This document shows positions 1,182-20,015 of a stretch of DNA of 20,173 nucleotides, one piece after another. Both the position numbers and the translations under genes were made by a program. Source of the DNA: a virus. The notes below the pieces were generated by a model that saw only the letters and a program-made list of their open reading frames with translations, did not search any database and was not told the DNA's origin. Every line of letters begins with the position of its first letter. Position 1 is the stretch's first letter. Location: the IMG/VR virus record IMGVR_UViG_3300049783_001348, positions 1 through 20,173 of that record; one strand, 5' to 3'.

Positions 1182-1189
1182 TATTTATA
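1182..1189 (+). promoter_or_regulatory. Putative late promoter element (TATTTATA)
   Basis: TATTTATA begins immediately after the upstream stop codon and lies 12 bases before ATG 1194 (18 before the alternative ATG 1200). It matches the motif found before seven other genes here. The short distance favours ATG 1200 as the real start if this is a promoter. It is not proven to be one, and the same 8-mer also occurs inside the downstream gene at 1412. Confidence 0.4.
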
Positions 1190-2246: not shown

Positions 2247-2262
2247 CTATTTATAATTAGAA
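2247..2262 (+). promoter_or_regulatory. Putative late promoter element (CTATTTATAATTAGAA)
   Basis: The element lies in the 40-base gap before the first patatin gene, with TATTTATA starting 33 bases before ATG 2281. It combines the TATTTAT core with the TTAGAA tail seen at 4794 and 16482. It sits inside a 6-bp perfect inverted repeat (GTTCTA at 2244-2249, TAGAAC at 2258-2263). The leader after it (aatttaacaaacaaac) has no Shine-Dalgarno sequence. Confidence 0.5.
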
Positions 2263-2280: not shown

Positions 2281-3300
2281 ATGAAAGCACTTGTATTATC
2301 TGGCGGAGCAGCCAAGGGAGCGTTTATAGGAGGGATGTTAGAATATATGAAGCTCAAGGAAGGTAAAGAGTATGACATGTATCTTAGCACATCTACTGGA
2401 ACATTAATCCAAATGCTCGCATCAATAAATGATTTTACATCTCTAAGAGAAGGCTACACTTCAATGGATATTAAGGGAATGTATGACGTAAGTCCATTTA
2501 AAAAAGTAAAAGACCCAAAAGATGCGGGTCGAGCAGATATAAATTTATGGTCTGCAGTAAGAATGATTCTTTTTAGAAAAGAACCAACTTTTGGAGACAA
2601 TCAAAAATTTAAGGAAACAATAAAGAGTTTTTTCCCTTACGAAAAATACCTTCTGGCATATGATAGCGGAATCAACATGACTTCAACTGTTACAAATATG
2701 TCAAAAAATAAGACTATGTATTTCGATATGAAGTCTCTTGGTAGAAACGAAAAAGGGTATGAAGATTTTGTAGAATGGACATGGACATCTACTTGCGCAG
2801 TTCCCTTTACATCTATATCAAGAAAGGTGGTTGGTGAAAGTGGAAATATCATTCATCACGGAGAGCATCCAGTTGTTTATTCAGACTATTTTGCAGACGG
2901 AGGATTTAAAGAACATATGCCAATTTCACAAGCAATTAAAGATGGCGCCACTGAGATTGATGCCATCTCTTCAAATACGGAAGAGTTTGCAGGAGACATG
3001 GAGCCAGAGTTTGGAGCAAATCCGCTTAAGTTACTCGCCAGGATGTTTGAGATAACTATGCGTGAAGCGATGGATAGAGATATTGATAACGCAAGGAGTA
3101 TGGCTAAAGATAAAGATGTTACTTTACGTGTTTATTATGCGCCAAGGCAGCTTACTGAAAATGGTATGTATTTTGACAAAGAGCAAATGTCTGGATGGTG
3201 GACAGAGGGTTATGAGTACATGGAACATAATCACGAGCATGATGAAAAATGCTGCAAAGTGTTTAAGATGAAAGCGAGAAAGGCTAAAAAAAAGAAATAA
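2281..3300 (+). CDS. Patatin-like phospholipase (first copy)
   Basis: This 339-residue protein has the patatin layout. The glycine-rich oxyanion loop SGGAAKGAF is at residues 7-15, the nucleophile elbow with Ser37 is in STSTG (36-40 region), and the dyad aspartate is in ADGG (Asp206). Family members hydrolyse the acyl esters of membrane lipids with a Ser-Asp dyad. The usual GxSxG elbow here reads SxSxG, with the first glycine replaced by serine, so activity may be altered; the second copy downstream keeps GTSTG. There is no signal peptide. The C-terminus has a His/Cys cluster (HNHEHDEKCC, about 316-325) and a lysine-rich tail. Shared patches with the downstream copy include the EGYTS, EDFVEW and WW.EGY regions. 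Possible roles are host membrane disruption at lysis or membrane remodelling; neither is shown by the sequence. Confidence 0.88.
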   Translation: MKALVLSGGAAKGAFIGGMLEYMKLKEGKEYDMYLSTSTGTLIQMLASINDFTSLREGYTSMDIKGMYDVSPFKKVKDPKDAGRADINLWSAVRMILFRKEPTFGDNQKFKETIKSFFPYEKYLLAYDSGINMTSTVTNMSKNKTMYFDMKSLGRNEKGYEDFVEWTWTSTCAVPFTSISRKVVGESGNIIHHGEHPVVYSDYFADGGFKEHMPISQAIKDGATEIDAISSNTEEFAGDMEPEFGANPLKLLARMFEITMREAMDRDIDNARSMAKDKDVTLRVYYAPRQLTENGMYFDKEQMSGWWTEGYEYMEHNHEHDEKCCKVFKMKARKAKKKK

Positions 3301-3351
3301 GATAAATTGATTTTATTAAACAAAAGAGCTATCTTATGGTAACCCTTTTTT

Positions 3352-3510
3352 ATGGCAGAAGATAAATTTAAGGTGTAGGTTTTGTTATTTCTGGAGTTTG
3401 AAAGTTTTCATGAGGCAGTTAATTATATTGAAGTTGGTCAACCAGCATTAAGTCAATGCTTTATAAGAAAAACATACAAGTGTAAAGGTTGTATATGGCA
3501 AAAAAAGTAA
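3352..3510 (+). pseudogene. Broken NUMOD1/IENR1-like DNA-binding domain remnant
   Basis: In the 194-base gap between the patatin genes one frame starts at ATG 3352 (MAEDKFKV), is cut by a TAG at 3376-3378, and continues for 43 codons to a TAA at 3508-3510. After the stop the peptide contains FLEFESFHEAVNYI, then ALSQCF and KTYKCKGCIW. This fits the pattern 'F.S..EA......I..c...K.K..G..W' of NUMOD1/IENR1 helix-turn-helix domains, which form the DNA-binding tails of phage and intron homing endonucleases. The KFKV before the TAG fits the expected first strand, so the stop seems to interrupt the domain. The end overlaps the first 16 bases of the second patatin gene in another frame. No HNH or GIY-YIG catalytic part is visible. 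A short protein started at the TTG just after the TAG cannot be excluded. Confidence 0.5.
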
Positions 3511-4427
3511 AACATAAAAAAGCATTAGTAGTAAGTGGTGGAGGAGCAAAAGGCGCTTGGGCTGGTGGCGTAATTCAGTATCTTCTTGAAGACAAAGAAA
3601 AGGATTATGACTTGTATGTTGGAACCTCTACAGGAAGCCTCTTAGCTCCATTGTCATCAATTCGAGAGTTAAGTATTTTAAAAGAAGGATATACCAGCAT
3701 AACGTCAAAAGACATATTTTCCCTAAACCCATTTAATGATGATGGAAGCATTAGGAAGTGGAATGCAATAAAAAGAGTGCTATCTTCAAAAAAGACTCTT
3801 GGAGAAACAGACAATCTTAGAGAATTAATTAAGGAGCATTTTAAGGAAAAACATTTTGAAAAACTTTATAAGTCAGACAAAGAAGTTATTGCTGTAGTTT
3901 CAAATCTTACAGACAAAAGAGTTGAGTATAAGTCATCAAATGAAAATAAATACGAGGACTTTGTAGATTGGCTTTGGGCATCATGCAATGCGCCTATATT
4001 TACGAGCATTGTCGAAAAGGACGATAATCAATATGCTGATGGTGGTATTTATGAACAAATCCCAATTCAAGTAGCAATTGAGAACGGAGCTACTGAGATA
4101 GATGTAATTGTTTTATCTCCAGAAGGTTTTGGTGTTGTTAAAAGAAAAAAGATAACCAGCCTGCTTCAATATTTTTTTAGATTGATAGAGATTCTAATGA
4201 GGAAAATTGCAAAGGATAATATAGACCTTGAAAAACTTAAGTCACATGGGAGAGAAATAGATATAAACATTTATTACACTCCATATAGCTTAACTGACAA
4301 TTCATTGGTGTTTGAAAAAGAGTCAATGCTAAGATGGTGGCAAGAGGGTTATATCAATGCAAAATCTGGAAATGTTAAAAAATACAAGATTACAAGGTCA
4401 AACGTATTCAAAGAGGTGGAAGAATAA
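3495..4427 (+). CDS. Patatin-like phospholipase (second copy)
   Basis: This 310-residue protein is a paralogue of the gene at 2281. I use ATG 3495; a frame-compatible TTG lies at 3489. It has the complete set of patatin motifs: VSGGGAKGAW (about residues 13-22), a canonical GTSTG elbow with Ser45, and the dyad aspartate in ADGG (Asp182). This predicts a Ser-Asp acyl hydrolase acting on phospholipids. It shares with the first copy the EGYTS region, EDFVDW followed by a conserved FTSI, ENGATEID, and a C-terminal WW.EGY block. There is no signal peptide or obvious membrane span, so it would act from the cytoplasmic side or within the virion. The gap before it has no TATTTAT element, so it is probably co-transcribed with the first copy. 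Confidence 0.9.
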   Translation: MAKKVKHKKALVVSGGGAKGAWAGGVIQYLLEDKEKDYDLYVGTSTGSLLAPLSSIRELSILKEGYTSITSKDIFSLNPFNDDGSIRKWNAIKRVLSSKKTLGETDNLRELIKEHFKEKHFEKLYKSDKEVIAVVSNLTDKRVEYKSSNENKYEDFVDWLWASCNAPIFTSIVEKDDNQYADGGIYEQIPIQVAIENGATEIDVIVLSPEGFGVVKRKKITSLLQYFFRLIEILMRKIAKDNIDLEKLKSHGREIDINIYYTPYSLTDNSLVFEKESMLRWWQEGYINAKSGNVKKYKITRSNVFKEVEE

Positions 4428-4438
4428 TCTTTTAATTC

Positions 4439-4446
4439 TATTTATA
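4439..4446 (+). promoter_or_regulatory. Putative late promoter element (TATTTATA)
   Basis: The sequence ctatttatataaaa lies in the 32-base gap after the second patatin gene, with the core starting 21 bases before ATG 4460. This is close to the 22-base spacing seen at 4794 and 14801. Confidence 0.45.
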
Positions 4447-4459
4447 TAAAACTCTTATT

Positions 4460-4768
4460 ATGAACGTTGGCACTGGACAAACTGTATATGAACAAATAAT
4501 TTCTCTTGACGTGGATAACAACTCTGTTACTGGAGCAACATTCGATACAACAATGTATAGAGATGGCGCTTCGTATACTGGAGCCACCGTAAGCATAGCA
4601 TTATCAGACGCTTCAAGAGGCGTATTCACTGCGTCTTGGTCAGCCTCTACTACTGGCGATTATCAATTATATGCCAAAAACCTTATTACATCTGTTGTTT
4701 TTATAGCAGATAATGTAGTTGTAAAATCAGACAGCGAACTTAGCACAAGTGTGTATATCGGAATCTAA
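4460..4768 (+). CDS. Small beta-sandwich (Ig-like) virion protein
   Basis: This is a 102-residue protein with no recognised family name. Almost the whole length alternates short beta strands (EQIISLDV, ATVSIAL, GVFTASWSA, GDYQLYAK, SVVFIADNVVV) with Ser/Thr/Gly/Asp turns, like the small Ig-like proteins that decorate phage heads or tails. The G-x-F/Y and GDY-x-LY pattern in the second half is typical of such folds. It contains no cysteine, signal peptide or membrane segment. It stands just before the terminase with its own putative late promoter element, consistent with a structural product made late. The function is inferred from fold appearance and position only. Confidence 0.65.
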   Translation: MNVGTGQTVYEQIISLDVDNNSVTGATFDTTMYRDGASYTGATVSIALSDASRGVFTASWSASTTGDYQLYAKNLITSVVFIADNVVVKSDSELSTSVYIGI

Positions 4769-4805
4769 TTCTAATAAACTCATTTTTTACCCCTATTTAT
4801 TAGAA
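4769..4805 (+). repeat. 10-bp inverted repeat whose right arm is the promoter-like motif
   Basis: TTCTAATAAA (4769-4778) begins directly after the stop codon of the upstream gene and is the exact reverse complement of TTTATTAGAA (4796-4805), the core and tail of the TATTTATTAGAAA element before the terminase. The 17-base loop contains a run of six T. In RNA this could fold as a weak AT-rich hairpin at the 3' end of the upstream message; in DNA it could be a two-sided protein-binding site. Confidence 0.5.
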
Positions 4806-4810
4806 ATTAA
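4794..4810 (+). promoter_or_regulatory. Putative late promoter element (longest form)
   Basis: TATTTATTAGAAATTAA starts 22 bases before the terminase ATG. The identical 17-mer occurs at 16482-16498 before the first baseplate gene, and both are preceded by a T-run followed by AC and a C-rich pair. Two unrelated late-type genes sharing this exact intergenic sequence is the best single support for a functional motif in the window. Confidence 0.6.
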
Positions 4811-4815
4811 TAAGT

Positions 4816-6585
4816 ATGGTTAATAATCAAATGTTAGAATTTGCTAAATGTGCAGCTGACCCTGTGTATTATATGAACACGTATGGATATGTGTTTAATG
4901 CAAAAGAAAGACAGGTTACTCAAATGACTTGTTTCGAATATCAAAACGATTGTCTGAGAAACTTTCACGAACATCAAAACAATATTATTCTAAAGTCAAG
5001 ACAAACAGGTCTTTCAGTTATTACTGCTGGATATGTTGCGTGGAGGCTTTTATTCAGATACGATGAAAAGATTCTTATCATTGCCAATGATGGCGCTGGT
5101 GCGGTTCGTTTCCTTGAAACTGTTAAGCAATTTATAGAACACACTCCTGTTTGGCTTAAGCCAGACGCAATTGAAACTGATAACACAAAGAAGATTGCAT
5201 TTTCAAACAACTCTTATGCTGAAGCAAAAGCATCGAGTCCAAATGCTGGTCGTGGAGATTCACTTACAATGTTGGTTCTTGATGAAACTGCCTTTATTAA
5301 AGATGACGAGGCAATTTGGATGGGAGCTGGTATGGCGCTTTCTGCTACAGGTGGAAAGTGTATTATGATTTCTACACCAAATGGTACTTCGGGATTGTAT
5401 TACAAAACCTGGAGAGAAACTATTAGTGGAGATAAATCTGCTAAAGAAGGAGAAGATTTTGTTGGAAAAACAGTTCACTGGACTGAAAATGAAAATAGTT
5501 CTGAGGGACTTGAATATAAAAAGGATGCAAATGGCAACGAAGTTCCATGGAGCCCATGGTACGAAGCACAATGTAAAAGACTTAACTGGGATTCAGTTCA
5601 GATTGCACAAGAGCTTGACCTTTCGTTCGAAGGTTCGAAAAGATTGGCAATTGATGCTCAGCTTGTTTCTAAATATAGAACAAAGGTTGAGAATGATTGC
5701 GAAAAACTTGGTTACATTAAGTTTGACTTCATGCAAAAAGAAGACTTGCACGAGTTTGCTCGGTTTACTTTGGAAGAAACAAATTTACACATTTACAAGC
5801 AACCAGAAGAAGGGGCGAGATATATACTTGCTGCCGATGTCGCCAGGGGTGATGGAATGGATTATTCTACAATGCAAATTCTTGATGCTGAAACTCTTGA
5901 GCAAGTAGCTGAGTATAGAGAGAAGGTTGGTCCAGATTTATTCCCATTCGTAATTAACGCAGTGGCGAGGATGTATAATACAGCATATGTTGTAATTGAG
6001 GCGAATTCATTTGGTCTTGGTGTTTGTTTTGACATTAGAGATAAATTCAAATATCCAAGAAACAGATTATATTTTTCTAAAAATATAAAAGACATTCACG
6101 TAAGACATTATAGCTACAAAGTAAATGAAGGAACAGAAATTCCAGGTTTCCAAACATCAAGAAAAAACAGAGTGCTTCTTGTAAAGGCTATTATCGAGCA
6201 CATGAGGGAGAACTCAATAACTCTCCACTCCAAAAGGCTTATGATGGAGTTTGACACATTCATTATGAATGGAGACAAGCCAGAGCACGAAAAAGGTTCT
6301 CATGATGATTTAATCATGGCGCTTGGAATTGCTCTTTATATTAGAGATACAGAATTTGAAAACGTAACCTCATCTACTGAGATGACAAAAAGCATGCTTG
6401 CAGCAATGATGCTTAATGCAAACCCTTCTGTTGGTAAAGTACTTGGAAATAATAACAAACGAAAAGAGACTCCAAAAGGAGGGGGCGGGCTTTTCATATT
6501 CAATGGAAATGAAAACACCGATGTGGGTGGCGCTGGAACACCAGGTGCAATAGACGATGATGATTTAAGTTGGTTATTAGGATAA
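4816..6585 (+). CDS. Phage terminase large subunit (T4 gp17-like)
   Basis: This 589-residue protein is the DNA-packaging motor ATPase and headful nuclease. The N-terminal ATPase domain has an adenine-binding FEYQ patch (40-43), a Walker A-type KSRQTGLS (60-67), a Walker B strand ending LVLDE (Asp156-Glu157) and the coupling motif ISTPNG (185-190). The C-terminal RNase H-fold nuclease domain shows its acidic residues in AADVARGDGMDY (Asp341), VIEANSFG (Glu395) and GSHDDLIMALG (Asp497-Asp498). The length matches T4 gp17-type terminases (about 600). The last 60 residues are a low-complexity Asn/Gly/Asp-rich tail. The protein docks on the portal encoded just downstream. No small subunit (gp16-like) is seen next to it. 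Confidence 0.96.
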   Translation: MVNNQMLEFAKCAADPVYYMNTYGYVFNAKERQVTQMTCFEYQNDCLRNFHEHQNNIILKSRQTGLSVITAGYVAWRLLFRYDEKILIIANDGAGAVRFLETVKQFIEHTPVWLKPDAIETDNTKKIAFSNNSYAEAKASSPNAGRGDSLTMLVLDETAFIKDDEAIWMGAGMALSATGGKCIMISTPNGTSGLYYKTWRETISGDKSAKEGEDFVGKTVHWTENENSSEGLEYKKDANGNEVPWSPWYEAQCKRLNWDSVQIAQELDLSFEGSKRLAIDAQLVSKYRTKVENDCEKLGYIKFDFMQKEDLHEFARFTLEETNLHIYKQPEEGARYILAADVARGDGMDYSTMQILDAETLEQVAEYREKVGPDLFPFVINAVARMYNTAYVVIEANSFGLGVCFDIRDKFKYPRNRLYFSKNIKDIHVRHYSYKVNEGTEIPGFQTSRKNRVLLVKAIIEHMRENSITLHSKRLMMEFDTFIMNGDKPEHEKGSHDDLIMALGIALYIRDTEFENVTSSTEMTKSMLAAMMLNANPSVGKVLGNNNKRKETPKGGGGLFIFNGNENTDVGGAGTPGAIDDDDLSWLLG

Positions 6586-6586
6586 C

Positions 6587-6615
6587 TATTTATTTTAAAC
6601 ATTCAATTATTTATA
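6587..6615 (+). promoter_or_regulatory. Two putative late promoter elements before the portal gene
   Basis: The 50-base gap before the portal holds two copies of the core: TATTTATT at 6587-6594 and TATTTATA at 6608-6615. The second lies 28 bases before ATG 6636, within the usual distance. Between them and the portal start lies an out-of-frame ATG at 6626 that would encode only seven residues and overlaps the portal start. Confidence 0.45.
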
Positions 6616-6635: not shown

Positions 6636-8642
6636 ATGGCACAAGATAGTAACTTCAATAGCGTTTTTGGTGGCGTAAATGACGCAATCAACAAGAATAA
6701 GCGTAGAACTCCGAGGGTGGAAAATCCTGGTGTGGTTCAAAATGTTGGCAATGGACTAATCAACCAAGAAAATAATGTTGAGCATGTTCAGCAACAGTTC
6801 CTTGATTGGCAAGTGAACAAGATTGCGCACGACCTTTACTCAAGAACTATTTATTATGATACTGATAGGATTAATGCCTACCAGGATTTTAGAGCGATGG
6901 ACCAGTCTCCTGAGATTGCTGCGGCTCTTAATATAATGAGAGATGAGTGTATTACCAGGGGAGAGAAAGGAAAAATTCTTGACATATTTTCAGAGAATGA
7001 AAGAGTTAAAGTGGTGCTTGAAGATTTGTTCTTCAACAGAATAGATATAGATTTTGCGCTTAAACTTTGGATTAGAGATTTATTGAAGTATGGAGATTTC
7101 TTTCTTCACCTTCATGTTGACAAAGAAGAGGGTATTTATGATGTAATGGCGCTCCCTTCTGAGGAAATTCACAGAGAAGAAGGGTTTGATGGAAGAACAG
7201 ATAATGTAAGATTTAGATGGGAAACTACTGGAGATTATTTTGAGGACTGGCAAGTTGCTCACTTTAGACTTCTTGAGGATACAAGAAAACTTCCTTATGG
7301 TCGTTCTATTCTTGACCCAGCGAGAAAACTTTGGAAACAATTGCAGTTGGCTGAGGATTCTATGCTTGTGTACAGAATTACAAGAGCGCCAGAGAGAAGA
7401 GTGTTTTATATTGATGTAGGTAACTTGGAGCATGCAGATGTTGCACAGTTTGTACAACAATTCCAAATTCAACTTAAGAAACAGCCTATCGTTGACCAGA
7501 AGACTGGTAACATGAACTTGAAGTACAATCCAATGAACGTAACAGAAGATTACTTCATTCCGATGAGAGCTGATAGGTCATCAAGAATTGAAACACTTCC
7601 AGGAGCATCTAACCTTGGTGATATTCAGGATATTGAATACCTACAAAACAAGTTATTCGCATCGCTTCAGGTTCCTAAGAATTACTTGAACTACGGTGAA
7701 TCACTTCCAGGAGGTTCAACGCTTAGTCAACAAGACCTTAGATTTGCAAGAACTATTAACACAATTCAACAAGCAGTGCTTGCTGAGCTTAAAAGGATTG
7801 CAAATATTCACCTGTACTTCAACGGGTTTACAGATGAGATAAATAATTTTACACTTACACTTACAAATCCATCTACACAACAAGAGCTTCTAAAGTTAGA
7901 AACTATGAAAGCTCGTCTTGAGGTGTTCAAGGAAATGTTTTCTGCAGAGGCAACATCTCCAGTGTCTTATGTTTGGGCAATGGAAAATGTTCTTGGATTC
8001 TCTAAGTCTGAAATTAAACTTATCCTTAAGCAGAAGAAGGTTGAAAAGAAAATATTTGCTGAAATTGACAGCGCTGTTGAGATGTACAAGAAAATTGGAT
8101 TATTTAAAGACCTTGATGAGAAATTTGAAATCGAAGGTGCTGAAGAAATGATGAAAGCTCAACAAGAGGGTGGCGATGAAGGTGGAGATGACCTTGGTGG
8201 CGGAGGCGGAGGCCTTGGCGGTGACCTTGGCGGAATGGACATGGGAGGAGCTGATGAGCTTGACATGGGAGATGAGCCTGGAGCTGAAGGTGGAGGCGAG
8301 GAAGAAATTCCTGTTGCTGAGAATAAGTTTAGAAAAGCTCAAAGAATTTCTGATAAATATGTTGGAAACATGCTTAATGAATTATTAGGACCAGATGAAG
8401 CTCCAAAGAAAGCAGTTAACGTTGAAGATAATGCTTTGATTAAAAGAAATAAGTCAATGAATCTTGAGTCTAAGAGGTTGATTGATAGCATGAATAATAG
8501 CTCCGCTGGTATAGGTAGAGGAGTTATTCAAGAGGCTGTTAAGAAAGCGAGCCCGCTTGTGGATGGTTCTGGCAAACTTGGAGATGAGAGCGATATTCTT
8601 ATGAATGATATTGAAAAGTTTTTGAGAAACAGAAAAAAATAA
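6636..8642 (+). CDS. Portal protein (T4 gp20-like)
   Basis: This 668-residue protein forms the dodecameric portal ring at the unique head vertex, through which the terminase pumps DNA and to which the tail attaches. T4 gp20-type blocks are visible: YYDTDRINAYQDFRAMD and PEIAAALNIMRDEC near residues 70-110, LLKYGDFFLHL (about 149-159), the LPYGRSILDPARKLWKQLQL helix, and ITRAPERRVFYIDVGNL (about 248-264). A YLQNKLFASLQVPKNYL stretch and the SLPGGSTLSQQD loop follow. Residues about 509-558 are an unusual run of Gly, Asp, Glu and Met, followed by a charged helical C-terminus of about 110 residues, making it longer than T4 gp20 (about 520). It directly follows the terminase, as in many tailed phages. 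Confidence 0.94.
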   Translation: MAQDSNFNSVFGGVNDAINKNKRRTPRVENPGVVQNVGNGLINQENNVEHVQQQFLDWQVNKIAHDLYSRTIYYDTDRINAYQDFRAMDQSPEIAAALNIMRDECITRGEKGKILDIFSENERVKVVLEDLFFNRIDIDFALKLWIRDLLKYGDFFLHLHVDKEEGIYDVMALPSEEIHREEGFDGRTDNVRFRWETTGDYFEDWQVAHFRLLEDTRKLPYGRSILDPARKLWKQLQLAEDSMLVYRITRAPERRVFYIDVGNLEHADVAQFVQQFQIQLKKQPIVDQKTGNMNLKYNPMNVTEDYFIPMRADRSSRIETLPGASNLGDIQDIEYLQNKLFASLQVPKNYLNYGESLPGGSTLSQQDLRFARTINTIQQAVLAELKRIANIHLYFNGFTDEINNFTLTLTNPSTQQELLKLETMKARLEVFKEMFSAEATSPVSYVWAMENVLGFSKSEIKLILKQKKVEKKIFAEIDSAVEMYKKIGLFKDLDEKFEIEGAEEMMKAQQEGGDEGGDDLGGGGGGLGGDLGGMDMGGADELDMGDEPGAEGGGEEEIPVAENKFRKAQRISDKYVGNMLNELLGPDEAPKKAVNVEDNALIKRNKSMNLESKRLIDSMNNSSAGIGRGVIQEAVKKASPLVDGSGKLGDESDILMNDIEKFLRNRKK

Positions 8643-8647
8643 CAAAG

Positions 8648-8896
8648 ATGCTTGATAAGAAATATTATGAAGGCTGGAACAAGAATGATGAGTACGGAGC
8701 AAAAAAAGATGTAGTAGGACTTCTTGAGGAACTCGAAGAATTTGATGAGCGAATCAAAAAGTTCTTTGGTCCTAAAAAGGTAAAAGCTGCAGGTGTTGAC
8801 GTAAGAAGAAGTTGCAGGATAATGATTGGTATTCTTAAAGAGATTCAGTCAAAAGTTCAGAAGACTAAGCAGGATTATGAAAGTGATTATGAATAA
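8648..8896 (+). CDS. Small charged helical protein, possibly histone H1/Hc1-like
   Basis: This 82-residue protein starts six bases after the portal stop and has no promoter element of its own, so it is probably expressed with the portal. It has an acidic N-terminal helix (VVGLLEELEEFDERIKKFF) followed by PKKVKAAGVDVRRSCRIMI and a Lys/Gln/Glu helix. The KAAG..VRR......L.EI.. pattern resembles the small histone H1/Hc1-like proteins found in Bacteroidota and their phages, which bind DNA. That resemblance is weak and by eye. In T4-type phages the gene after the portal is often a small prohead core protein, so that is the main alternative. Confidence 0.6.
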   Translation: MLDKKYYEGWNKNDEYGAKKDVVGLLEELEEFDERIKKFFGPKKVKAAGVDVRRSCRIMIGILKEIQSKVQKTKQDYESDYE

Positions 8897-8899
8897 AAG

Positions 8900-8931
8900 T
8901 TTGGTCAATAAATAAAAAGTGCATAATTTTG
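8900..8931 (+). promoter_or_regulatory. Bacteroidota-type housekeeping promoter for the replication block
   Basis: TTTG (8900-8903) and TAATTTTG (8924-8931) are separated by 20 bases, an exact fit to the known Bacteroidota primary-sigma consensus TTTG-N19-21-TAnnTTTG. It lies in the 80-base gap before the polymerase gene; transcription would start near 8938 and give a leader of about 40 bases ending in an A-rich stretch with no Shine-Dalgarno sequence. No TATTTAT element is present in this gap. Confidence 0.7.
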
Positions 8932-8976
8932 CGTTGAGTTGGAGTTAGAAAGAATTCAACAAAACAAAAATAACAT

Positions 8977-11900
8977 ATGTATATAGTATTTGATACCGAG
9001 ACAACTGGAAAGGCAAAAAATTTCAGCGCTCCTATCACAGACTTTAACAACTGGCCAAGAATGGTCCAGATTGCCTGGAAGGTCTTTGATGCGAACGGAG
9101 TAGAGATAGATTCACAAAACTTAATCATTAAACCTCAAGGGTTTAAAATTCCTGATGAAGCAATAGCGATTCATAGGATTACAAACGAGATAGCCAAAGA
9201 GAGAGGTATTCCCCTTCGCCAGGCTCTTGATAAGTTTACAACAGCTGTAGGAAAAAATAAGCACCTTATTGCTCACAACATGTCATTTGATGAAAATGTA
9301 ACAGGGTGTGAGTTTCTTAGAGAGGGGATGCATAACTGTGTTCCAGACATAAATCACATTGATACCATGAAGTTAACAACTGACTTCGTGGCAATTCCAA
9401 ACAAAAGAGGTAGAAGCGGATTTAAGTTCCCTTCTCAAACTGAGCTTCACAAAAAACTATTCGACAAAGGATTTGATGATGCTCATGATGCACTTGCAGA
9501 TGTTACTGCATTGGCAAGATGTTTCTTTGAGCTTCAGAGAATAGGTATTCTTGGATTTAAAGAAGAAGGGGGAGCAGAAGACCTTATGGAATCTTTATCT
9601 ATAACCGCAGAAGAGAAGCCTTCTGATATAGATGCTGACGCAATTAGAGTGACTCCTCTTGGATTACATACATTCCACTCTATTCTTGACGGAGCAGGTT
9701 CTATTGATGAATATATTAAGCTTGCAAAGAATTATGGACACACATCAATGGCGATTACAGATAATTCAACATTGTCTGGAACATTTGAGTTTTTCAATAA
9801 ATGTAAAGCAAATGGTATCAAACCAGTGTTTGGTATTGAGATTTTCTTAAATGATAACATTGGCAAGTTCGAAGAGAAAGAGCTTGAAGGAGATAATTAT
9901 AAGATAAAGATTTTTATAAAGAATGAACAAGGGTATAGAAACTTGAATCACCTACTTTATCTCGCAAACACCGAAGGATTATTTAAGAAAGAAGCGAGAA
10001 TAACTACTGAATGGCTATTGAAGTATAAAGAGGGGTTAATCGTCTCAACTTCTGGTCTTGACAGTAAATTAGCAAACTTGGTTCTTAAAGGTAAAGTTAT
10101 TGATGCAGAGAACTACATTAACATGCTTAGAAGGGAGTTTGCAGATGATTTGATAGTAGAGTTCAAGTTTAGTAAGTTCACCACTCAGAAGCAGTATAAC
10201 AACTTCCTAATCAAAATGATGAGAAAGTACAAGTTGTTTCCTGTAATGAGCAACGATACTTACTATCCAAGGAAGGAGGATTCTAAGCTCCAGGATGTGG
10301 TGACCTCAATTAAGCAACACCGTATGTTGGCTTATTGTTCTCTAAAAGAAAACAGAGAATTATACTACTTCAATAGCGATGACTATAGGGAAATGAATAC
10401 TAAGTATGGATTTAAGTATCCTGAAAAGTTTCTTGAGCTTTGTATGAAAAATACAAACGCCATTGCTGATAAGTGTAATTTTGAATTTGATACTGGAACC
10501 GAAAAATACCCAAGGTATGAACCAACGGAGAAAGTAATCAATTATTTCAAGACAGATAAGACAGAGGATATTATTGTCAAGCTTTCATTTGCCAAGTTGA
10601 GACAGAAGATTGAAATCTACAAGAAGAATGGAATCGTTGAAATAACTGATGAAAAAATTGATGAGTACGTTGCTCGTCTAAATTATGAAATCAGCATTAT
10701 CAAATCAAAGAAGATGCTTGATTATTTCATGGTGAACTGGGAGATAATTAACTTTTACAGAGACCAGGGTCACGACATTGGTCCAGCCAGAGGTTCTGCT
10801 GCGGGTTCATTATTATCATGGTGTCTTGACATCACGAAGATTGACCCAATTAGGTTCGGTCTTTATTTTGAGCGTTTCCTAAACCCTGAAAGAGATAGTC
10901 CGCCAGATATTGATATTGATTTCATGACTGGTACAGATGATGTAACTAATCAGTTCCTGCAAGATAAGTATGGCAAGGAGCGTGTAATGTCTGTTGCAAC
11001 TTTCTCTACGTTCTCTGAGAAGAATACAATTAAAGATGTTGTTCGTGCTCACCGTGGGAGTGAAGCAACTGGGTTTGATTCAGGGGTGTTCAAACTTACG
11101 AAAGAGATGCCTAATTTCTTGAACTATAACGATACGCTTAGGCATTGGTTTGAGACATGGCCAGATAAACCAGAGTGTTCTCCAGAAGTTAGAAATTGGA
11201 TTAGAAACCCAAATAATGCTGAGGTGATTGAAACAGCTCTTCAGCTTCATGGAAACATTAGAGGTATTGGTCAGCACGCAGCTGGGGTTGTAATTACTCC
11301 AGGTTTATCTTGGGATTATATTCCAACTAATGTAATCGCATCAAATGAGAATGTGGTTACAGCATTTCAAGAAGCCGATAAGTCTGGAAAGGATTTAAGT
11401 GCGCTTGGAATTCTAAAATTGGATAGATTGAAATTGGAAACCTTAAATGTAATCAAGGAGACAATAGATATTGTTAAAGCAAAAAAGGGCGTAGATATTT
11501 CTAATGAAGTGGATTATGTGAATCTTGAAGACCCTAATTTGTTTATGGAGCTTCGATTAGGTCTTAACCATGGTATATTTCAGTTTGAGAGTCACGGGAT
11601 GAATAATCTTATTAGAGGTATTGCGGTTGATAAATTTGAAGAACTTGTTGCAGCCAACGCATTGTATCGTCCAGGTCCAATGGGGATTGGAGCGCACGAA
11701 GAATTTATTGTAAACAAATTCAACCCAGAGAAGATTGAGTATATTCACCCAGCTCTCGAATCAATTCTTGGAGAAACAAATGGAGTACTTGTATTCCAAG
11801 AGCAGCTTATGTTTATTGCTGATAAAATTGGGGGTATGGGTCTTGGTAAAGGAGATATGCTTCGTAGGTACATGGATAAAGCTTCTAAGATTATTGCGAG

Positions 11901-13080
11901 GAATTCAGCTGGAGAGAAATTGACAGACGAAGAAAATAACAACAAGAACTGGAAAGGTTTCCAAGAATATTGGGGAATGTTCCTTGATGGAGCAGCTGCT
12001 CAAGGTTATAATAAAGATGAGGTAGATGGGATTAAGGATTGGGTAATTCAATACCTTGGTTATTCATTTAATAAATCTCACGCACTTTCTTATTCGTACT
12101 TGGCAATGCAGACTCTTTATCTTAAGCATTATCATCCTACAGAGTTTTATACAGCCCTTTTAAATCACCCAAAATCTGGAAACAAAGAAAAGCAACAAGC
12201 GTGGATTGGTTCTGCGATTGCATCAGCAATGTCGAAAGGAATTGAGATTAAGATGCCATCAAGAAAGTCTGGATGGAGATGGACAATGACTGGGGAGCAT
12301 GAAATATCTATGGGGTTCTCTGGTATTAATGGATTGGGTCCAATTGCCTATGAAGAAATGATTGACCTTATAGATGAGATTAAGGTAAAGGATGGAGAGA
12401 CAAAAAAGACGCTCGAAACTGTAAGTATGAGTGTGTTTTTTAGATTACCATTTAGTAAGTTTAATAAGAGCGCTTTTGCAGCGTGCCTTAAAGCTGGAGT
12501 GTTTGATGATTGGAGCAACTCAAGAGAGCAGTTGGCTAACCTAAAGACTAAGAAGAAAAAGAAGGCGAATGCTAATCAAACTGTGTTGTTCGACATGAAT
12601 GATGAAGCTTTCGATATTCCAGTTAAAGAGGAGGCAAGTAAATATCCGCCAACTACGTGGGCAGCAAAAAGAATAGACTTTCTTGAGGTGTGTAATTTTG
12701 ACCTTGAAAAGATTAAGTACATTCAAGATATAAAAGCTGATGTAAATACCAGGGCAAAGAGAGATAAACTTGTGGAGACGATAATCAATTTTGATGATAA
12801 TGATTTCTATATATTTGTCGTTGACACATTCAAGGTGTCTATGAGTAAGAATGGGAAAGAGTATTTAACAATGAGGGTTGGTGATGGAATTAGTTTCACA
12901 ACACTTAGAGCGTTCGACCCAGTTGCAAAAGACCTTCAGCCACTCCTTGCGGCAAATGGAATATACGTTGCTGAATTTGAAAAGAATGCTAAAGGGTATG
13001 TGAACTTCAAGAGAGGAACGAGAATCGTTCGAGTTGATAAGGATTTAAGTAAAAAAGAAGAAGATGAAGTTAACAATTGA
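8977..13080 (+). CDS. DNA polymerase III alpha subunit with fused DnaQ-type 3'-5' exonuclease
   Basis: This 1367-residue family C replicative polymerase presumably copies the phage genome. Residues 1-190 are a DEDDh exonuclease: FDTETTG (Asp6, Glu8), HNMSFD (Asp105) and HDALAD (His170, Asp175). Residues about 225-480 are a PHP domain whose metal-binding residues are largely lost: the usual first H-x-H motif reads PLGLHTFHS and the ITDH motif reads ITDN. The polymerase core follows: PARGSAAGS near 602, FERFLNPER then PDIDIDF (643-649) with the catalytic aspartates, and LKLDRLKL with Asp816. After this come QFESHGM, ALYRPGPM, VFQEQLM and FNKSHALSYSYLAMQTLYLK. Toward the C-terminus come a helix-hairpin-helix (SGINGLGPIAYEEM) and an OB-fold-like region (about 1268-1350). 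The A-rich leader before ATG 8977 fits Bacteroidota starts. No clamp-loader or clamp gene is in the window. Confidence 0.96.
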   Translation: MYIVFDTETTGKAKNFSAPITDFNNWPRMVQIAWKVFDANGVEIDSQNLIIKPQGFKIPDEAIAIHRITNEIAKERGIPLRQALDKFTTAVGKNKHLIAHNMSFDENVTGCEFLREGMHNCVPDINHIDTMKLTTDFVAIPNKRGRSGFKFPSQTELHKKLFDKGFDDAHDALADVTALARCFFELQRIGILGFKEEGGAEDLMESLSITAEEKPSDIDADAIRVTPLGLHTFHSILDGAGSIDEYIKLAKNYGHTSMAITDNSTLSGTFEFFNKCKANGIKPVFGIEIFLNDNIGKFEEKELEGDNYKIKIFIKNEQGYRNLNHLLYLANTEGLFKKEARITTEWLLKYKEGLIVSTSGLDSKLANLVLKGKVIDAENYINMLRREFADDLIVEFKFSKFTTQKQYNNFLIKMMRKYKLFPVMSNDTYYPRKEDSKLQDVVTSIKQHRMLAYCSLKENRELYYFNSDDYREMNTKYGFKYPEKFLELCMKNTNAIADKCNFEFDTGTEKYPRYEPTEKVINYFKTDKTEDIIVKLSFAKLRQKIEIYKKNGIVEITDEKIDEYVARLNYEISIIKSKKMLDYFMVNWEIINFYRDQGHDIGPARGSAAGSLLSWCLDITKIDPIRFGLYFERFLNPERDSPPDIDIDFMTGTDDVTNQFLQDKYGKERVMSVATFSTFSEKNTIKDVVRAHRGSEATGFDSGVFKLTKEMPNFLNYNDTLRHWFETWPDKPECSPEVRNWIRNPNNAEVIETALQLHGNIRGIGQHAAGVVITPGLSWDYIPTNVIASNENVVTAFQEADKSGKDLSALGILKLDRLKLETLNVIKETIDIVKAKKGVDISNEVDYVNLEDPNLFMELRLGLNHGIFQFESHGMNNLIRGIAVDKFEELVAANALYRPGPMGIGAHEEFIVNKFNPEKIEYIHPALESILGETNGVLVFQEQLMFIADKIGGMGLGKGDMLRRYMDKASKIIARNSAGEKLTDEENNNKNWKGFQEYWGMFLDGAAAQGYNKDEVDGIKDWVIQYLGYSFNKSHALSYSYLAMQTLYLKHYHPTEFYTALLNHPKSGNKEKQQAWIGSAIASAMSKGIEIKMPSRKSGWRWTMTGEHEISMGFSGINGLGPIAYEEMIDLIDEIKVKDGETKKTLETVSMSVFFRLPFSKFNKSAFAACLKAGVFDDWSNSREQLANLKTKKKKKANANQTVLFDMNDEAFDIPVKEEASKYPPTTWAAKRIDFLEVCNFDLEKIKYIQDIKADVNTRAKRDKLVETIINFDDNDFYIFVVDTFKVSMSKNGKEYLTMRVGDGISFTTLRAFDPVAKDLQPLLAANGIYVAEFEKNAKGYVNFKRGTRIVRVDKDLSKKEEDEVNN

Positions 13081-13501
13081 ATTAGTACCACAGACAGCAT
13101 GGTATAGTAATGTTCGTTCTAATGTTTCTAAAGCAGAGTGGGATGTCTTAAGAAAAGCATGCTACAAAGCTGCAGGATATAAATGCGAGGTATGTAGTGG
13201 AAAAGGTCCGAAGCATCCAGTAGAATGTCATGAGATATGGGATTATGATGACAAGGCTTGCAAACAAACGCTTGAAGGGTTAATAGCTCTTTGTCCAGAT
13301 TGCCACAAGTGTAAACACATGGGCTATGCTCGTATTAGTGGAAATTATGATATGGCTTTGAAACATCTTGCTAAGGTTAATGGAATATCTAAGAAGAAGG
13401 CTGAGAAGTATGTTGAAGAAAGTTTTGTTATCTGGGAAGAGAGAAGTAAGAAAAAATGGGAGTTGGATATTACAATTTTAGAAAATAAAGAAGATGAGTA
13501 A
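13064..13501 (+). CDS. HNH-type zinc-binding protein, putative endonuclease
   Basis: This 145-residue protein overlaps the end of the polymerase gene by 17 bases. The zinc/HNH core is CEVC (Cys41, Cys44), VECHEIW (His56), and LCPDCHKCKH (Cys77, Cys80, His81, His85), the treble-clef layout of HNH nucleases. The usual central Asn position reads Gly in LEGLIALC, and only one His is found in the first strand, so catalysis is not certain. The flanks (ELVPQTAWYSNVRS at the start, LAKVNGIS and WEERSKKKWELDI at the end) look like a conserved full-length family rather than a homing-endonuclease fragment. Its coupling to the polymerase suggests a role in DNA metabolism. Confidence 0.75.
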   Translation: MKLTIELVPQTAWYSNVRSNVSKAEWDVLRKACYKAAGYKCEVCSGKGPKHPVECHEIWDYDDKACKQTLEGLIALCPDCHKCKHMGYARISGNYDMALKHLAKVNGISKKKAEKYVEESFVIWEERSKKKWELDITILENKEDE

Positions 13502-13643
13502 TGTTCAAGTGTTTACAATAGTATCTTGTAAAAAGAAATACGCCCTAATAAACTATGCAGAAATCATAGAGTATTATAACTCGCCATTTTATAAGAAGTG
13601 GTTTAAAAAGTGTCCTACAAAAGATTTAATGGAAATAAAGTGA
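13494..13643 (+). CDS. Small ORF of 49 residues between HNH protein and RNase H
   Basis: The ATG at 13494 lies inside the end of the HNH gene (8-base overlap, ATGAGTAA), and the stop TGA at 13641-13643 shares a base with the next ATG (TGATG). Both junctions are typical of translational coupling, and without this ORF there would be a gap of about 140 bases in an otherwise overlapping block. The product begins MSNVQVFTIVSCKKKY and is rich in Tyr, Lys and Ile; I recognise no domain. It could be a genuine small protein or a coupling leader for RNase H. Confidence 0.6.
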   Translation: MSNVQVFTIVSCKKKYALINYAEIIEYYNSPFYKKWFKKCPTKDLMEIK

Positions 13644-14800: not shown

Positions 14801-14810
14801 TATTTATTAT
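14801..14810 (+). promoter_or_regulatory. Putative late promoter element (TATTTATTAT)
   Basis: TATTTATTAT starts 22 bases before ATG 14823, the same spacing as at the terminase. It would drive the overlapping trio 14823-16433. Confidence 0.5.
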
Positions 14811-16481: not shown

Positions 16482-16498
16482 TATTTATTAGAAATTAA
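16482..16498 (+). promoter_or_regulatory. Putative late promoter element (longest form, identical to 4794)
   Basis: TATTTATTAGAAATTAA starts 31 bases before ATG 16513 and is identical to the element before the terminase. ATTTATTAG within it (16483-16491) forms a perfect 9-bp inverted repeat with CTAATAAAT (16503-16511), which ends two bases before the start codon. Confidence 0.6.
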
Positions 16499-16512: not shown

Positions 16513-17406
16513 ATGTCAGAAACTATAACGTTAGGCGGAGCTAAAGACTCAAATAGCGGTAATACTAATCCCAATGAAGGGGTTAATAGTCAGCAAGAGC
16601 CTAAAACACAACAAGACATTGCTAAAGAGTACAATATTCCAGAGCAATATCTTGACATGGAATTTAAAGTTCCAACAGAAGAGGTGACTCTGCCTTCAAT
16701 GGGAGCGTTTTATCCAAACAACAAAAAATCAGTTACAATTAAGTATCTTACAGCAGAAGAAGATGATATTCTTTATTCTCCAGACCTTATTAAGTCAGGA
16801 AAAGTATTAGATGTTCTTCTTGATAAAGCTGTTATAGATAAAGACCTTAGGCCTGAGAATATGCTTTCTGGAGATAGAAACTACCTTCTTGTTGAAATCA
16901 GAAAGACTGGTCTTGGTAATGACTATGTTCCAGGAGAAGTGCAATGCCCTTCTTGTGGTCAAGTTCATGAGCCAACAATCGACCTTTCTAAGCTTGGAGC
17001 TAAACCTCTTGAGATTATGCCAGATTCAGACGGGGAGTATGAAACTGAGCTTCCTATCATGAAAATGAGAATCAGATTTAGACTTCTTACTGGAGTTGAT
17101 GAAAAGAGATTAGGAAAACTTGCCGAAGTAAAAGGTAAGAAAAATGGCGGAATCAGAGTTTCTAAACTTGTAACTGAAAAGTATGTGATGCAAATCATGG
17201 AAGTAAACGGAAACAGAGACAAGCTTTACATTAAGAAATTTATTGCAGCAATGCCAATGAAAGACTCAATGTACTTCAGAGAGTATGTTAGAAGAATTGA
17301 GCCAGGATTGGACCTTTCTTACGAATTCGAATGTCCAGCATGTGGAGAGTTAGATGTTAAAGATATTCCAATTACTCCTAAGTTGTTCTACCCAGACTTA
17401 GATTAA
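16513..17406 (+). CDS. Baseplate hub protein, T4 gp26/T4_baseplate-like (first paralogue)
   Basis: This 297-residue protein resembles the T4 base plate protein family (gp26, hub assembly). After a disordered Asn/Gln/Ser-rich N-terminus (1-40) comes LPSMGAFYP (60-68), then IKYLTAEEDDIL and LLDKAVIDKDLRPENMLSGDRNYLLVEIR (102-130). Two zinc-type knuckles follow, CPSCG (Cys145, Cys148) and CPACG (Cys274, Cys277), which probably join in one four-cysteine site. Between them lie FRLLTGVDEKRLG and KKFIAAMPMKDSMYFREYVRRIEPGLD. The gene at 17408 has the same order of blocks. In T4 the family acts in building the central hub of the baseplate. It carries its own long-form promoter-like element. Confidence 0.8.
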   Translation: MSETITLGGAKDSNSGNTNPNEGVNSQQEPKTQQDIAKEYNIPEQYLDMEFKVPTEEVTLPSMGAFYPNNKKSVTIKYLTAEEDDILYSPDLIKSGKVLDVLLDKAVIDKDLRPENMLSGDRNYLLVEIRKTGLGNDYVPGEVQCPSCGQVHEPTIDLSKLGAKPLEIMPDSDGEYETELPIMKMRIRFRLLTGVDEKRLGKLAEVKGKKNGGIRVSKLVTEKYVMQIMEVNGNRDKLYIKKFIAAMPMKDSMYFREYVRRIEPGLDLSYEFECPACGELDVKDIPITPKLFYPDLD

Positions 17407-17407
17407 T

Positions 17408-18481
17408 ATGTCAGACGGTCATCAAGATATAATAAAGTCTATTGATGATTTGAAAGAGGTTGTAGAAAAAAACAAGGATGCTAATGACTTGTTGAAATCC
17501 GTTAATGAGCTAAAAGAAAAGTTCAGCGAGAATACAGATGAGGTAAGAAATCTTGCCGAACTGATTCAACAAGAAAGGACGCATAAAAATATAGAGAAGC
17601 CTTTTGAGATGCTATTCATACCCTCAAAAGGCTTTTTTTATCCAAGTAGAGAAGACCACTTACTTTTAAATCAATTGACTTATGTTGAGGAGAACCTCCT
17701 CACAAGCGAATTCCTTGTAGAATCTGGAAAGGCTATGGAGTTTGTTCTTAAGAATATTCTTGTAGAACAAAATATAGACCCAAAAGATTTATTAACTGGA
17801 GATGTTCAGGCTATTGGGTTGTTCTTGCGTTCATATGCTTATGGAGACAATCTTGAGCTTGAACTTGAGTGTCCTCATTGCGGATTTGAAGAAGAAGTTC
17901 CTGTGAGGTTGTCATCATTCCAGATGAAAGACATCGTGGTTCAACCAGAAAATGGAATGATTCCAATGTTACTTAATGGTACCGAGCTTATATTCATGTT
18001 TAAGCCGCTTACTTACTTTGAGGAGATTGGTGTAGAAAAAGCTAAATTAAGTAGTTTGGAGAAGTTGATTTATATGACGCATTCAGTAAATGATTGTGAA
18101 GATAAAAATATTATATCTCAGATTTATAGAAAATTAAGTATTCCAGAAATAAGAAGAGTAAAAAAATTTCTTATAAAAGCTACTCCTGGAGTAGACGCTG
18201 TTGTTAGACATTCATGTAGTTCTTGCGGTAAAGATAATTCTCTTAACTTTGGTGGTGCTCACAGTTTCCTTGCATTTCCTGCAACATTTAGAGAGAACGT
18301 ACAAGAAGAGTGTTTTCTTGTGTCTTATTATGGTAAAGGAATTAGTCATGAGGATGCTAAGAAAATGCCAGTTACTGAAAGAAGGTGGCTATTAAATAGA
18401 ATTAACGAAGAGCTTACCAAGAAAAAAGAAGCTGAAGAAAAAGCTCACAGAGCAGCGAAATCAAAGTCTAAATCGAAGTAA
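17408..18481 (+). CDS. Baseplate hub protein, T4 gp26/T4_baseplate-like (second paralogue)
   Basis: This 357-residue protein starts one base after the previous stop, so it is co-transcribed. Residues 1-60 are a charged coiled coil. Then follow LFIPSKGFFYP (69-79), LLTGDVQAIGLFLRSYAYGD (about 128-147), a first knuckle CPHCG (Cys155, Cys158) and FMFKPLTYFEEIG (196-208). KKFLIKATPGVDAVV leads to a second knuckle, CSSCG (Cys270, Cys273). The order matches the upstream gene, but this copy has a C-terminal extension (about 285-357) with MPVTERRWLLNRINEELTKK and a basic tail KSKSKSK. The pair may be two different hub parts or form a heteromer. Alignment is by eye. Confidence 0.78.
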   Translation: MSDGHQDIIKSIDDLKEVVEKNKDANDLLKSVNELKEKFSENTDEVRNLAELIQQERTHKNIEKPFEMLFIPSKGFFYPSREDHLLLNQLTYVEENLLTSEFLVESGKAMEFVLKNILVEQNIDPKDLLTGDVQAIGLFLRSYAYGDNLELELECPHCGFEEEVPVRLSSFQMKDIVVQPENGMIPMLLNGTELIFMFKPLTYFEEIGVEKAKLSSLEKLIYMTHSVNDCEDKNIISQIYRKLSIPEIRRVKKFLIKATPGVDAVVRHSCSSCGKDNSLNFGGAHSFLAFPATFRENVQEECFLVSYYGKGISHEDAKKMPVTERRWLLNRINEELTKKKEAEEKAHRAAKSKSKSK

Positions 18482-18519
18482 TAAACAGGTTTTGTTTAAA
18501 AAAAATAACCTATTTATTA
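18479..18519 (+). repeat. 13-bp inverted repeat (one mismatch) spanning gene end and promoter-like motif
   Basis: TAATAAACAGGTT (18479-18491) begins at the stop codon of the baseplate gene and pairs with AACCTATTTATTA (18507-18519), with a single C/A mismatch. The loop is 15 bases and A-rich. The right arm contains the TATTTATTA core of the downstream element, the same arrangement as at 4769-4805. It could act as a weak terminator hairpin, an RNA-processing site or a binding site. Confidence 0.5.
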
Positions 18520-18535: not shown

Positions 18536-19972
18536 ATGAAAGACCAACCTAAAAAACTTCAAGAATTAAAGAAGGACAGCTCTGTTGTCTTTGAAGGTAT
18601 ATTTGGCAAAAAAGCAGCCCCACAAAAAGGAAATGGACAAGTTCAAATTATCGGAATCGGGAAGTATAGAATGGGAAATAGTTTAATCACTAAGGTACAT
18701 GGGACCAGTGAGGCTGGAATTACTAATTATGATTTTGCTAATTCTGACTTAGGTTGGCTATTGGATGCTAAATTTGAAGGAATTCTAAATTTAGACTTAG
18801 ACAGAGGGGTCTTAAAGTCTTTCTCAGGAAAGTGGATGGAAGGCGTATTCAAAGGTTTGGTATTTGGAAATGGAAGCACATTCGAAGGTGGACAGTTTGG
18901 TGATGGAATCACAAAGCCTGTTTATCATCCTCCATTTGTTTCATGGAAAACATCTCCGCTTAACTTTATAGACGGAACAATCAATAGAGAGACTGGTGGT
19001 ATATTAGGTATTCCTGATGCTCCAAATGGAGAAGTAGATGGTGTCAACATTATTTCTATTCAGCCTGGTAAATCATTGATAATAAAATTAAAGAATAACA
19101 TTGTTCACAAAATCAATTTTAAAAAGAGAATTGATAGGATGAGCTCTGACTTCACTATCGAAATTGTAAATGGAGAAACTGGAGAAATTAAAGATAAAAC
19201 GTTTGATTGGGCAAATTCTAAGCAATCGTTAAATAAACCATTCTACCCTTATAAGTCACAAGTATTCTTAGGATTGGACTTAAGTGTAGGGGTTATTTCT
19301 GCAACTATTGCTACTTCGGGTAGAGAAACTTTGTCTCACAAGCCAGAGGGCGATAAGTCATCTCCAAGCAATCTATCAAAAGAACAGCAACAGTTCAATC
19401 TTTCTGATATGCCATTTTTAGGTATACCAAGTATTCCAAGAGGAAAAGGCGGAACTCCAGATGTATTATATTTTAACTTCCCAACTGCAAACCACCAAAA
19501 TGGTCATGCAAAGGTTGTTAACTCAATTAAGAGTGGGTGGATTAAATCTTATCTTACTCAAATTAAAACAGCCTTAGAACAAGGCGTTATAAAAGGAGCC
19601 CCAGCAACACACCAATATCTATCAAATGTAATTGGTAAGGATGCGGATGCGGATTTGAAGGCGATGGACCAAGACCTTGTTAATTCTCTTAATGGTATGG
19701 AAAGCTTTTTAAAGTATTTCGTAGAGACCATGGTAAGAAGAGTTAGAAAGTCTGGTACAGAAAAAGGATTAACAGATGTTGTTGATGCAAAAGGTAAAGA
19801 GGCTATAAAAAATAGACTTAAAGAATTGGTTGGATTATCTAATCCTATCCAGAACAAACCAGCTAACAAACCATCCACACAAGCGGGTAGTAAGTTAAAA
19901 AACAAATTCCTAAAAGAAAGTGTTGTAGACGCTGTTCGTGAAATTATTTCGAAAAATATGAAACATTTTTAA
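18536..19972 (+). CDS. Virion-associated protein with MORN-like glycine/aromatic repeats
   Basis: This is a 478-residue protein of unknown family. Residues 95-125 (SGKWMEGVFKGLVFGNG, then STFEGGQFGDG) resemble MORN-type repeats, where aromatic and glycine residues alternate about every ten positions; the similarity is limited to two or three units. The middle (150-275) looks beta-rich. A Ser/Lys/Pro-rich linker follows near 280-305, then a helical C-terminal third. The final stretch LKESVVDAVREIISKNMKHF is an amphipathic helix of the same general type as the N-termini at 14823 and 16074. No signal peptide or membrane span is visible. It follows the baseplate hub genes with its own putative late element, so a baseplate or tail component is likely. 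Confidence 0.6.
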   Translation: MKDQPKKLQELKKDSSVVFEGIFGKKAAPQKGNGQVQIIGIGKYRMGNSLITKVHGTSEAGITNYDFANSDLGWLLDAKFEGILNLDLDRGVLKSFSGKWMEGVFKGLVFGNGSTFEGGQFGDGITKPVYHPPFVSWKTSPLNFIDGTINRETGGILGIPDAPNGEVDGVNIISIQPGKSLIIKLKNNIVHKINFKKRIDRMSSDFTIEIVNGETGEIKDKTFDWANSKQSLNKPFYPYKSQVFLGLDLSVGVISATIATSGRETLSHKPEGDKSSPSNLSKEQQQFNLSDMPFLGIPSIPRGKGGTPDVLYFNFPTANHQNGHAKVVNSIKSGWIKSYLTQIKTALEQGVIKGAPATHQYLSNVIGKDADADLKAMDQDLVNSLNGMESFLKYFVETMVRRVRKSGTEKGLTDVVDAKGKEAIKNRLKELVGLSNPIQNKPANKPSTQAGSKLKNKFLKESVVDAVREIISKNMKHF

Positions 19973-19975
19973 TTA

Positions 19976-19996
19976 TCTATCGTATAAGAAGATAGA
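19976..19996 (+). repeat. Short hairpin after the 478-residue protein gene
   Basis: TCTATC (19976-19981) and GATAGA (19991-19996) form a 6-bp stem with a 9-base loop in the 43-base gap before the last gene. There is no T-run after it, so it is a poor rho-independent terminator candidate. The gap contains no TATTTAT element. Confidence 0.3.
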
Positions 19997-20015
19997 ACCA
20001 ATTAAAAATAAAGAT

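Follow-up and report, generated by a model that had tools for sequence, protein, structure and literature searches.

TATTTAT recurs in the gaps before the genes of the window

Does the short word TATTTAT, which recurs ahead of the genes of this phage fragment, act as a promoter, and if so, of what class and read by which factor? The window, namely the whole 20,173-base IMG/VR record, represents part of the genome of a T4-like phage that probably infects a member of the Bacteroidota. It carries genes for the large terminase, the portal, two baseplate-hub proteins, a bacterial-type DNA polymerase III alpha, an RNase H and two patatin-like proteins. The last two are adjoining phospholipase genes (PF01734, positions 2281-4427), unusual amid virion genes, and the second is also kept in relatives. 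We consider it very probable, from the sequence comparisons described below, that TATTTAT is the late promoter core of this phage and a variant of the T4 scheme; late timing, the start position, the factor and its presence in the window phage are what we infer. Sites of this kind are called class I hereafter.

The nine TATTTAT cores listed in the initial annotation were all recovered on the + strand (Table 1), together with the identical 17-mer TATTTATTAGAAATTAA at 4794 and 16482. From the first T of the closest copy to the ATG, the distance was 12/18 to 33 bases, in agreement with the range given there. Eight gaps contain the core, as had been counted, although the gaps of at least 10 bases that precede genes number 12 (829 bases in total with our gene models) and not 11. 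Dinucleotide-preserving shuffles yielded a mean of 0.58 gaps with the word and a maximum of 4 in 10,000 trials, so that the observed 8/12 is far beyond the shuffled background. The reverse complement ATAAATA was present in one window gap for 0.58 expected, and this background level indicates that the signal of TATTTAT is strand-specific. The longer 13-mer alone was weaker, with 6 matches at no more than two mismatches in the window against 3.0 expected; hence the core is the signal. The caveat that copies also lie inside genes is justified, since four TATTTAT occur on the + strand within window genes. An artefact of AT-rich composition might be suspected from the GC content of the genome (31-39%) and from a 13-mer at just twice the chance level; however, neither dinucleotide shuffles, nor the reversed word, nor other AT-only 7-mers reproduced the enrichment, which leaves this explanation a negligible probability.

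Table 1. Genes and promoter elements of the window (class I, TATTTAT sites; all starts of transcription are predictions)
Feature	Position	Strand	Remarks
Class I (putative late) box TATTTAT before the 1194/1200 gene	1182..1188	+	Predicted start ~1193, leaving almost no leader before ATG 1194
Class I box before patatin-like gene 2281-3300	2248..2254	+	Predicted start ~2259
Class I box before small gene 4460-4768	4439..4445	+	Predicted start ~4450
Class I putative promoter of the large terminase gene	4783..4800	+	T-tract, spacer ACCCC, box TATTTAT 4794-4800, predicted start A 4805
Terminase large subunit (gp17-like)	4816..6585	+	3' of class I putative promoter
First class I box before portal gene (6636)	6587..6593	+	Retained in most cases; some relatives have a degenerate copy
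Second class I box before portal gene	6608..6614	+	Predicted start ~6619
Portal protein (gp20-like)	6636..8642	+	3' of the class I box pair
Host-type sigma-A putative promoter TTG-N20-TAATTTTG before DNA polymerase III alpha gene 8977-13080	8901..8931	+	Early-type; gap without class I
Class I box before gene 14823-15602	14801..14807	+	Predicted start A 14812
Class I box before baseplate-hub gene 16513-17406 (phrog_150)	16482..16488	+	Predicted start A 16493
Two baseplate hub genes (phrog_150)	16513..18481	+	A single class I putative promoter would serve the pair
Class I box before gene 18536-19972	18511..18517	+	Predicted start A 18522
Class II putative promoter before gene 20016	19963..19987	+	ACAT...CGTATAA, i.e. 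AACA-N17-TATAA

The box is conserved and enriched in related phages

Comparison of the terminases gave as nearest named relatives an uncultured 484-kb phage and the Flavobacterium phages 'immuto' (30-32% identity); IMG/VR contains much closer relatives than immuto, which were labelled G001 to G009. Two other contigs, G013 (372 kb) and G015 (96 kb), encode a capsid protein 74% identical to that of G008. Upstream of the terminase gene, TTTTTACCCCTATTTAT was invariant across all relatives compared (74-93% protein identity) while its flanks differ. The boxes at 4439 and 14801 were retained in 10/10 and 5/5 orthologs, respectively, and the box at 16482 in the orthologs of G001, G003, G007 and G009. 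At the 18511 site, ACCTATTTATTA was retained in 4/4 orthologs despite protein identities of just 30-35%. Conservation is weak or not apparent for the genes at 1200 and 2281 and for the second portal box. One ortholog, that of G008 (75% identity), still has the 1182 box; among two further orthologous matches, one has no box and the other (L010) has it at another spacing. For the 2248 box, the matches in the relatives are paralogs or rearranged and provide no evidence of conservation. At 6608 the box itself varies among relatives, and the sequence kept there is TATATTTTATAAAA.

In the contigs of the relatives, TATTTAT ranked first or close to first among over-represented upstream 7-mers. With genes outside the window called by a simple in-house caller, and with sites in related phages being non-independent samples, we observed 40 upstream copies for 5.8 expected in the 195-kb relative G003, 60 for 5.2 in G005/G007/G008, 25 for 2.5 in G001/G009, 29 for 3.6 in Flavobacterium phage immuto, 116 for 19.5 in G013, and 30 for 2.5 in G015. 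The word was also enriched in four contig sets gathered by the gp55-like factor described below or by capsid: 74/228 (9 expected), 8/23 (0.9), 38/128 (6) and 84/217 (13).

The box was found within 40 nt of 220/603 genes that follow a gap, but of only 4/261 tightly packed genes (p 3e-35), as had been claimed for the tightly spaced genes of the window. This near absence from operon-internal genes speaks against a signal acting in translation by AU-rich ribosome loading, or a site of mRNA processing. Such a role would fit the proximity of TATTTAT to start codons and the lack of Shine-Dalgarno sites in Bacteroidota (PMC6847099); nevertheless, the distance to the ATG varies (11, 20-29 and up to 50), and in G003 the word is never found in a gap with the other promoter classes. 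We therefore regard a translation or processing signal as highly improbable.

The boxes were over-represented in the virion regions of immuto (21/40 versus 9/72 elsewhere, p 1e-5) and of G003 (12/21 versus 29/134 elsewhere, p 0.002). They precede capsid, protease, terminase, portal and baseplate genes; in G008, for instance, they lie before the genes of the gp21 protease and of the gp23 capsid protein (PF07068). Part of the class I sites precede non-virion genes, that is endonucleases and the neighbourhood of an ATP-dependent protease, and in the group at 42-46% identity the capsid genes have no box directly upstream. Taken together, the strand-specific enrichment, the conservation in orthologs, the placement before virion genes and the absence inside operons support the initial proposal that the phage has a late-promoter class of its own, with a distinct specificity.

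Anatomy of the box and predicted start of transcription

When aligned by their first T, the class I sites showed a T-rich stretch from -10 to -5, a frequent C at -1, the TATTTAT box, A/T at +7, and A at +8, +11 and +12. Nothing was conserved at -33 or -35 in the aligned sites, and the T-tract located 5 to 10 nt from the box is the only upstream feature. That this tract is nothing more than the U-run of a preceding terminator was rejected, since it is also seen where no hairpin lies upstream. Immuto has the box of the clade, but devoid of the T-tract.

The distance from the first T to the ATG was bimodal, with a sharp peak at 11 (13 sites, with one more at 10 and two at 12) and a broad peak at 20-29; the same analysis performed on the reversed word lacked these peaks. 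Furthermore, the base at +11 was an A in 167/186 sites (90%). This spacing together with the A at +11 suggests that transcription probably begins 11 nt downstream of the first T. With a start at +11, most genes would have a 5' leader of some 10-18 nt, and the subset whose ATG coincides exactly with this start would have a leaderless mRNA. In G003, genes with the ATG at +11 are mostly stand-alone homing endonucleases of the GIY-YIG or HNH type. The intron-borne and free-standing homing endonucleases of T4 (I-TevI, SegB) also have a late promoter immediately upstream of the start (PMC2988022). The difference is that here the ATG is itself the predicted start of transcription, which would give leaderless mRNAs.

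The Flavobacterium sigma-A -7 box, TAnnTTTG, is located at -12 to -5 (PMC9723704), so that the predicted placement of the class I box fits the geometry of the host polymerase. This resemblance in position to the Bacteroidota promoters (-33 TTG, -7 TAnnTTTG), and the TA plus TT in common, might suggest that class I is a variant host sigma-A promoter whose genes are not specially late. However, class I has an invariant A at the sixth base, lacks both the TTTG and the -33 element (neither TAnnTTTG nor a TTG 19-21 nt upstream was found at class I sites), and genuine host-type promoters exist in the same genomes, in other gaps of G003. A variant host promoter is thus very unlikely.

Putative host-type and class II promoters lie mostly in other gaps

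Two of the four window gaps without TATTTAT contain promoter-like elements of other kinds (Table 1, positions 8901-8931 and 19963-19987). The first, of the host type, precedes the DNA polymerase III alpha gene, which in the window sits amid virion genes; the TAnnTTTG box was present before its ortholog in G001, G003, G007, G008 and L014, and TATTTAT in none of them. The second belongs to class II, AGAACA-N17-TATAAT, of which ACAT-N12-15-CGTATA is the equivalent. It was found before the correspondingly placed gene in G001, G003, G007 and G009, and at about 28 sites in G003. In the window, the region 19963-20002 reads ACATT-N13-CGTATAA followed by GAACCAAT, and several class II sites likewise have GAACCAAT downstream.

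Scoring the 155 gaps of G003 for promoter classes gave 41 gaps with TATTTAT, 22 with ACAT-N12-15-CGTATA and 14 with TTG-N18-21-TAnnTTTG, with zero overlap (p 2.6e-6). G013 differs from G003 in that class I and host-type elements occur together in six gaps. We also observed that the DNA polymerase gene is split in G003 (8405-14079, L015) and in G008 (58472-64173) by an inserted ORF of 359 aa with its own putative TATTTAT promoter; this is perhaps an intron or endonuclease insertion.

Comparison with the late promoters of T4 and Aeh1

The late promoters of T4 carry the box TATAAATA at -13 to -6 and depend on the sigma factor gp55, the co-activator gp33 and the clamp gp45. Class I sites resemble them in consisting of a box without a -35 element, in being placed immediately ahead of virion genes and certain homing endonucleases, and in having a small region-2 sigma as likely reader. 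Aligned in a common orientation, TATAAATA and the class I sequence TATTTATA agree at 6/8 positions, the central AA being replaced by TT. The core had initially been described as the exact reverse complement of the T4 box. We judge this match a coincidence because the element always points the same way relative to its gene, and a box turned round would drive transcription away from it. The two systems also differ in several respects: the class I box would start at -11 and the T4 box starts at -13, a T-tract lies upstream of the box in the clade of the window, and the candidate sigma of the clade's relatives is only remotely similar to gp55. When the same method was applied to T4 as a control, it recovered TATAAATA in 8/13 cases and TATTTAT in 2/13. 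Conversely, TATAAATA was rare in the gaps of the clade (7/155 in G003, 0/27 in G009 and 0/21 in G001). The phrog_223 profile, which matches T4 gp45, gave nothing in five clade contigs or in the complete immuto genome.

For a T4-like phage, an altered late box alongside a divergent gp55 has a precedent in Aeromonas phage Aeh1, the late promoters of which read CTAAATA (PMC1524935). In Aeh1, however, the change in the box is another one and the host is Aeromonas. Moreover, Aeh1 gp55 was detectable with T4 gp55, unlike the gp55-like family of the clade's relatives. No earlier description of a TATTTAT late promoter was found in the open-licence literature.

Two candidate factors for reading the box

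The search for a gp55-like or other sigma factor recommended in the initial annotation was partly successful: a remote gp55-like family exists in close relatives, and none was detected in the window or in the nearest clade contigs. This family, first found as immuto26A_153, is abundant in viral contigs and occurs in the close relatives G013 and G015 as well as in eight more distant contigs; its gene has a conserved order near baseplate genes. T4 gp55, immuto-type profiles, clade queries and profile-profile comparison did not find it in the window, G003, G005, G007, G008, G009 or G001. The G008 contig stops at glycosyltransferase genes, and in G015 and G013 the gene is located only some 7-9 kb past these; contig ends may therefore account for its absence from the clade contigs. 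The classic T4 gp55 model, phrog_234, had no match in the clade and hit the immuto protein only at E 0.008. A weak match to a protein of 504 aa was discarded, the protein being a DNA helicase.

Region 2 is recognizable in the family, since 13/34 members match Sigma70_r2 (PF04542; best E 9e-5). The AlphaFold model had a mean pLDDT of 84 and replaced an earlier, poor model built from two sequences (pLDDT 54). It superimposed on domain 2 of SigA (4x8k) with a Z of 7.8 and an rmsd of 3.0 over 105 residues, and most of its best structural matches were sigma factors, with scores that are modest for a helical protein (best VIA-align Z ~8, Foldseek E at least 0.18). Region 4 had no Pfam match, the C-terminal helices could be compared with full-length sigma factors only at large rmsd, and the family profile matched none of the sequences of solved structures. 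We consider the gp55-like family a fairly likely reader of the class I box.

The other candidate is a sigma-A-like factor of 298 aa encoded in G003 (50819-51715; L017:10819-11712), which contains regions 1.2 to 4 (PF04542, 71 bits; PF04545, 60 bits). It would make class I a late promoter read by the phage's own sigma-A-like factor and not by the gp55-like family. In line with this reading, the clade contigs yielded no gp55-like gene, while the sigma-A-like factor is encoded by G003, L132 and G013, always within an operon that follows a host-type promoter, as fits an early regulator. Region 2.4 of this factor (FISYAVWWIRQSILQ) matches that of a Bacteroidota primary sigma exactly, and the change that stands out most, R to N, lies in the helix of region 4.2 (TNERVRQI versus TRERVRQI). 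A normal region 2.4 combined with a changed -35-reading helix would suit an altered -35 with a normal -10, that is class II promoters rather than a box-only promoter. In addition, immuto possesses the TATTTAT class, and no sigma-70 match was found in it. Recognition of class I by the sigma-A-like factor is therefore unlikely, and its sequence suggests a role at class II promoters.

In the scheme that we favour, with the gp55-like family as reader, the host RNA polymerase would carry a phage sigma of this remote family, made of a region-2 domain and a small helical C-terminal domain, and the complex would recognise late in infection solely the -10-like TATTTAT box. A non-systematic look at the genes revealed no phage RNA polymerase. 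Early genes, including those of the DNA polymerase and of the sigma-A-like factor, would use the host-type TTG-N20-TAnnTTTG promoters, and a second gene set would use AGAACA-N17-TATAAT, possibly read by the sigma-A-like factor.

A putative promoter code for T4-like phages of Bacteroidota

Such an early, second-class and late code would be readable for abundant environmental phages that are known almost only from metagenomes, so that the timing of their genes could be predicted from sequence alone. Tentatively, and at a little under an even chance, these phages may form a large and mostly uncultured T4-like assemblage infecting Bacteroidota with its own late-transcription system. This system would combine the TATTTAT box, a fixed start at +11, a distinct gp55-like sigma, no T4-type clamp, and stand-alone homing endonucleases in which the box is joined to the start codon to form minimal leaderless cassettes. 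With an altered late box and a divergent sigma family side by side, they would offer a natural test of promoter-reader co-evolution from T4 to the phages of Bacteroidota, and immuto, a cultured phage of Flavobacterium sp. LMO8, allows direct testing of the prediction.

Further repeated elements were noticed in two of these genomes. In immuto (MW353175, 63-76 kb, L043), early-type promoters of the form AGTTGC-N-TATATTTAGGTATCAATAAT precede many small genes, and in G013 (340-346 kb, L256) a repeated CCCACTTTTTCAAATAATTTGCTTTATATAGTC before many small genes appears to be another promoter class.
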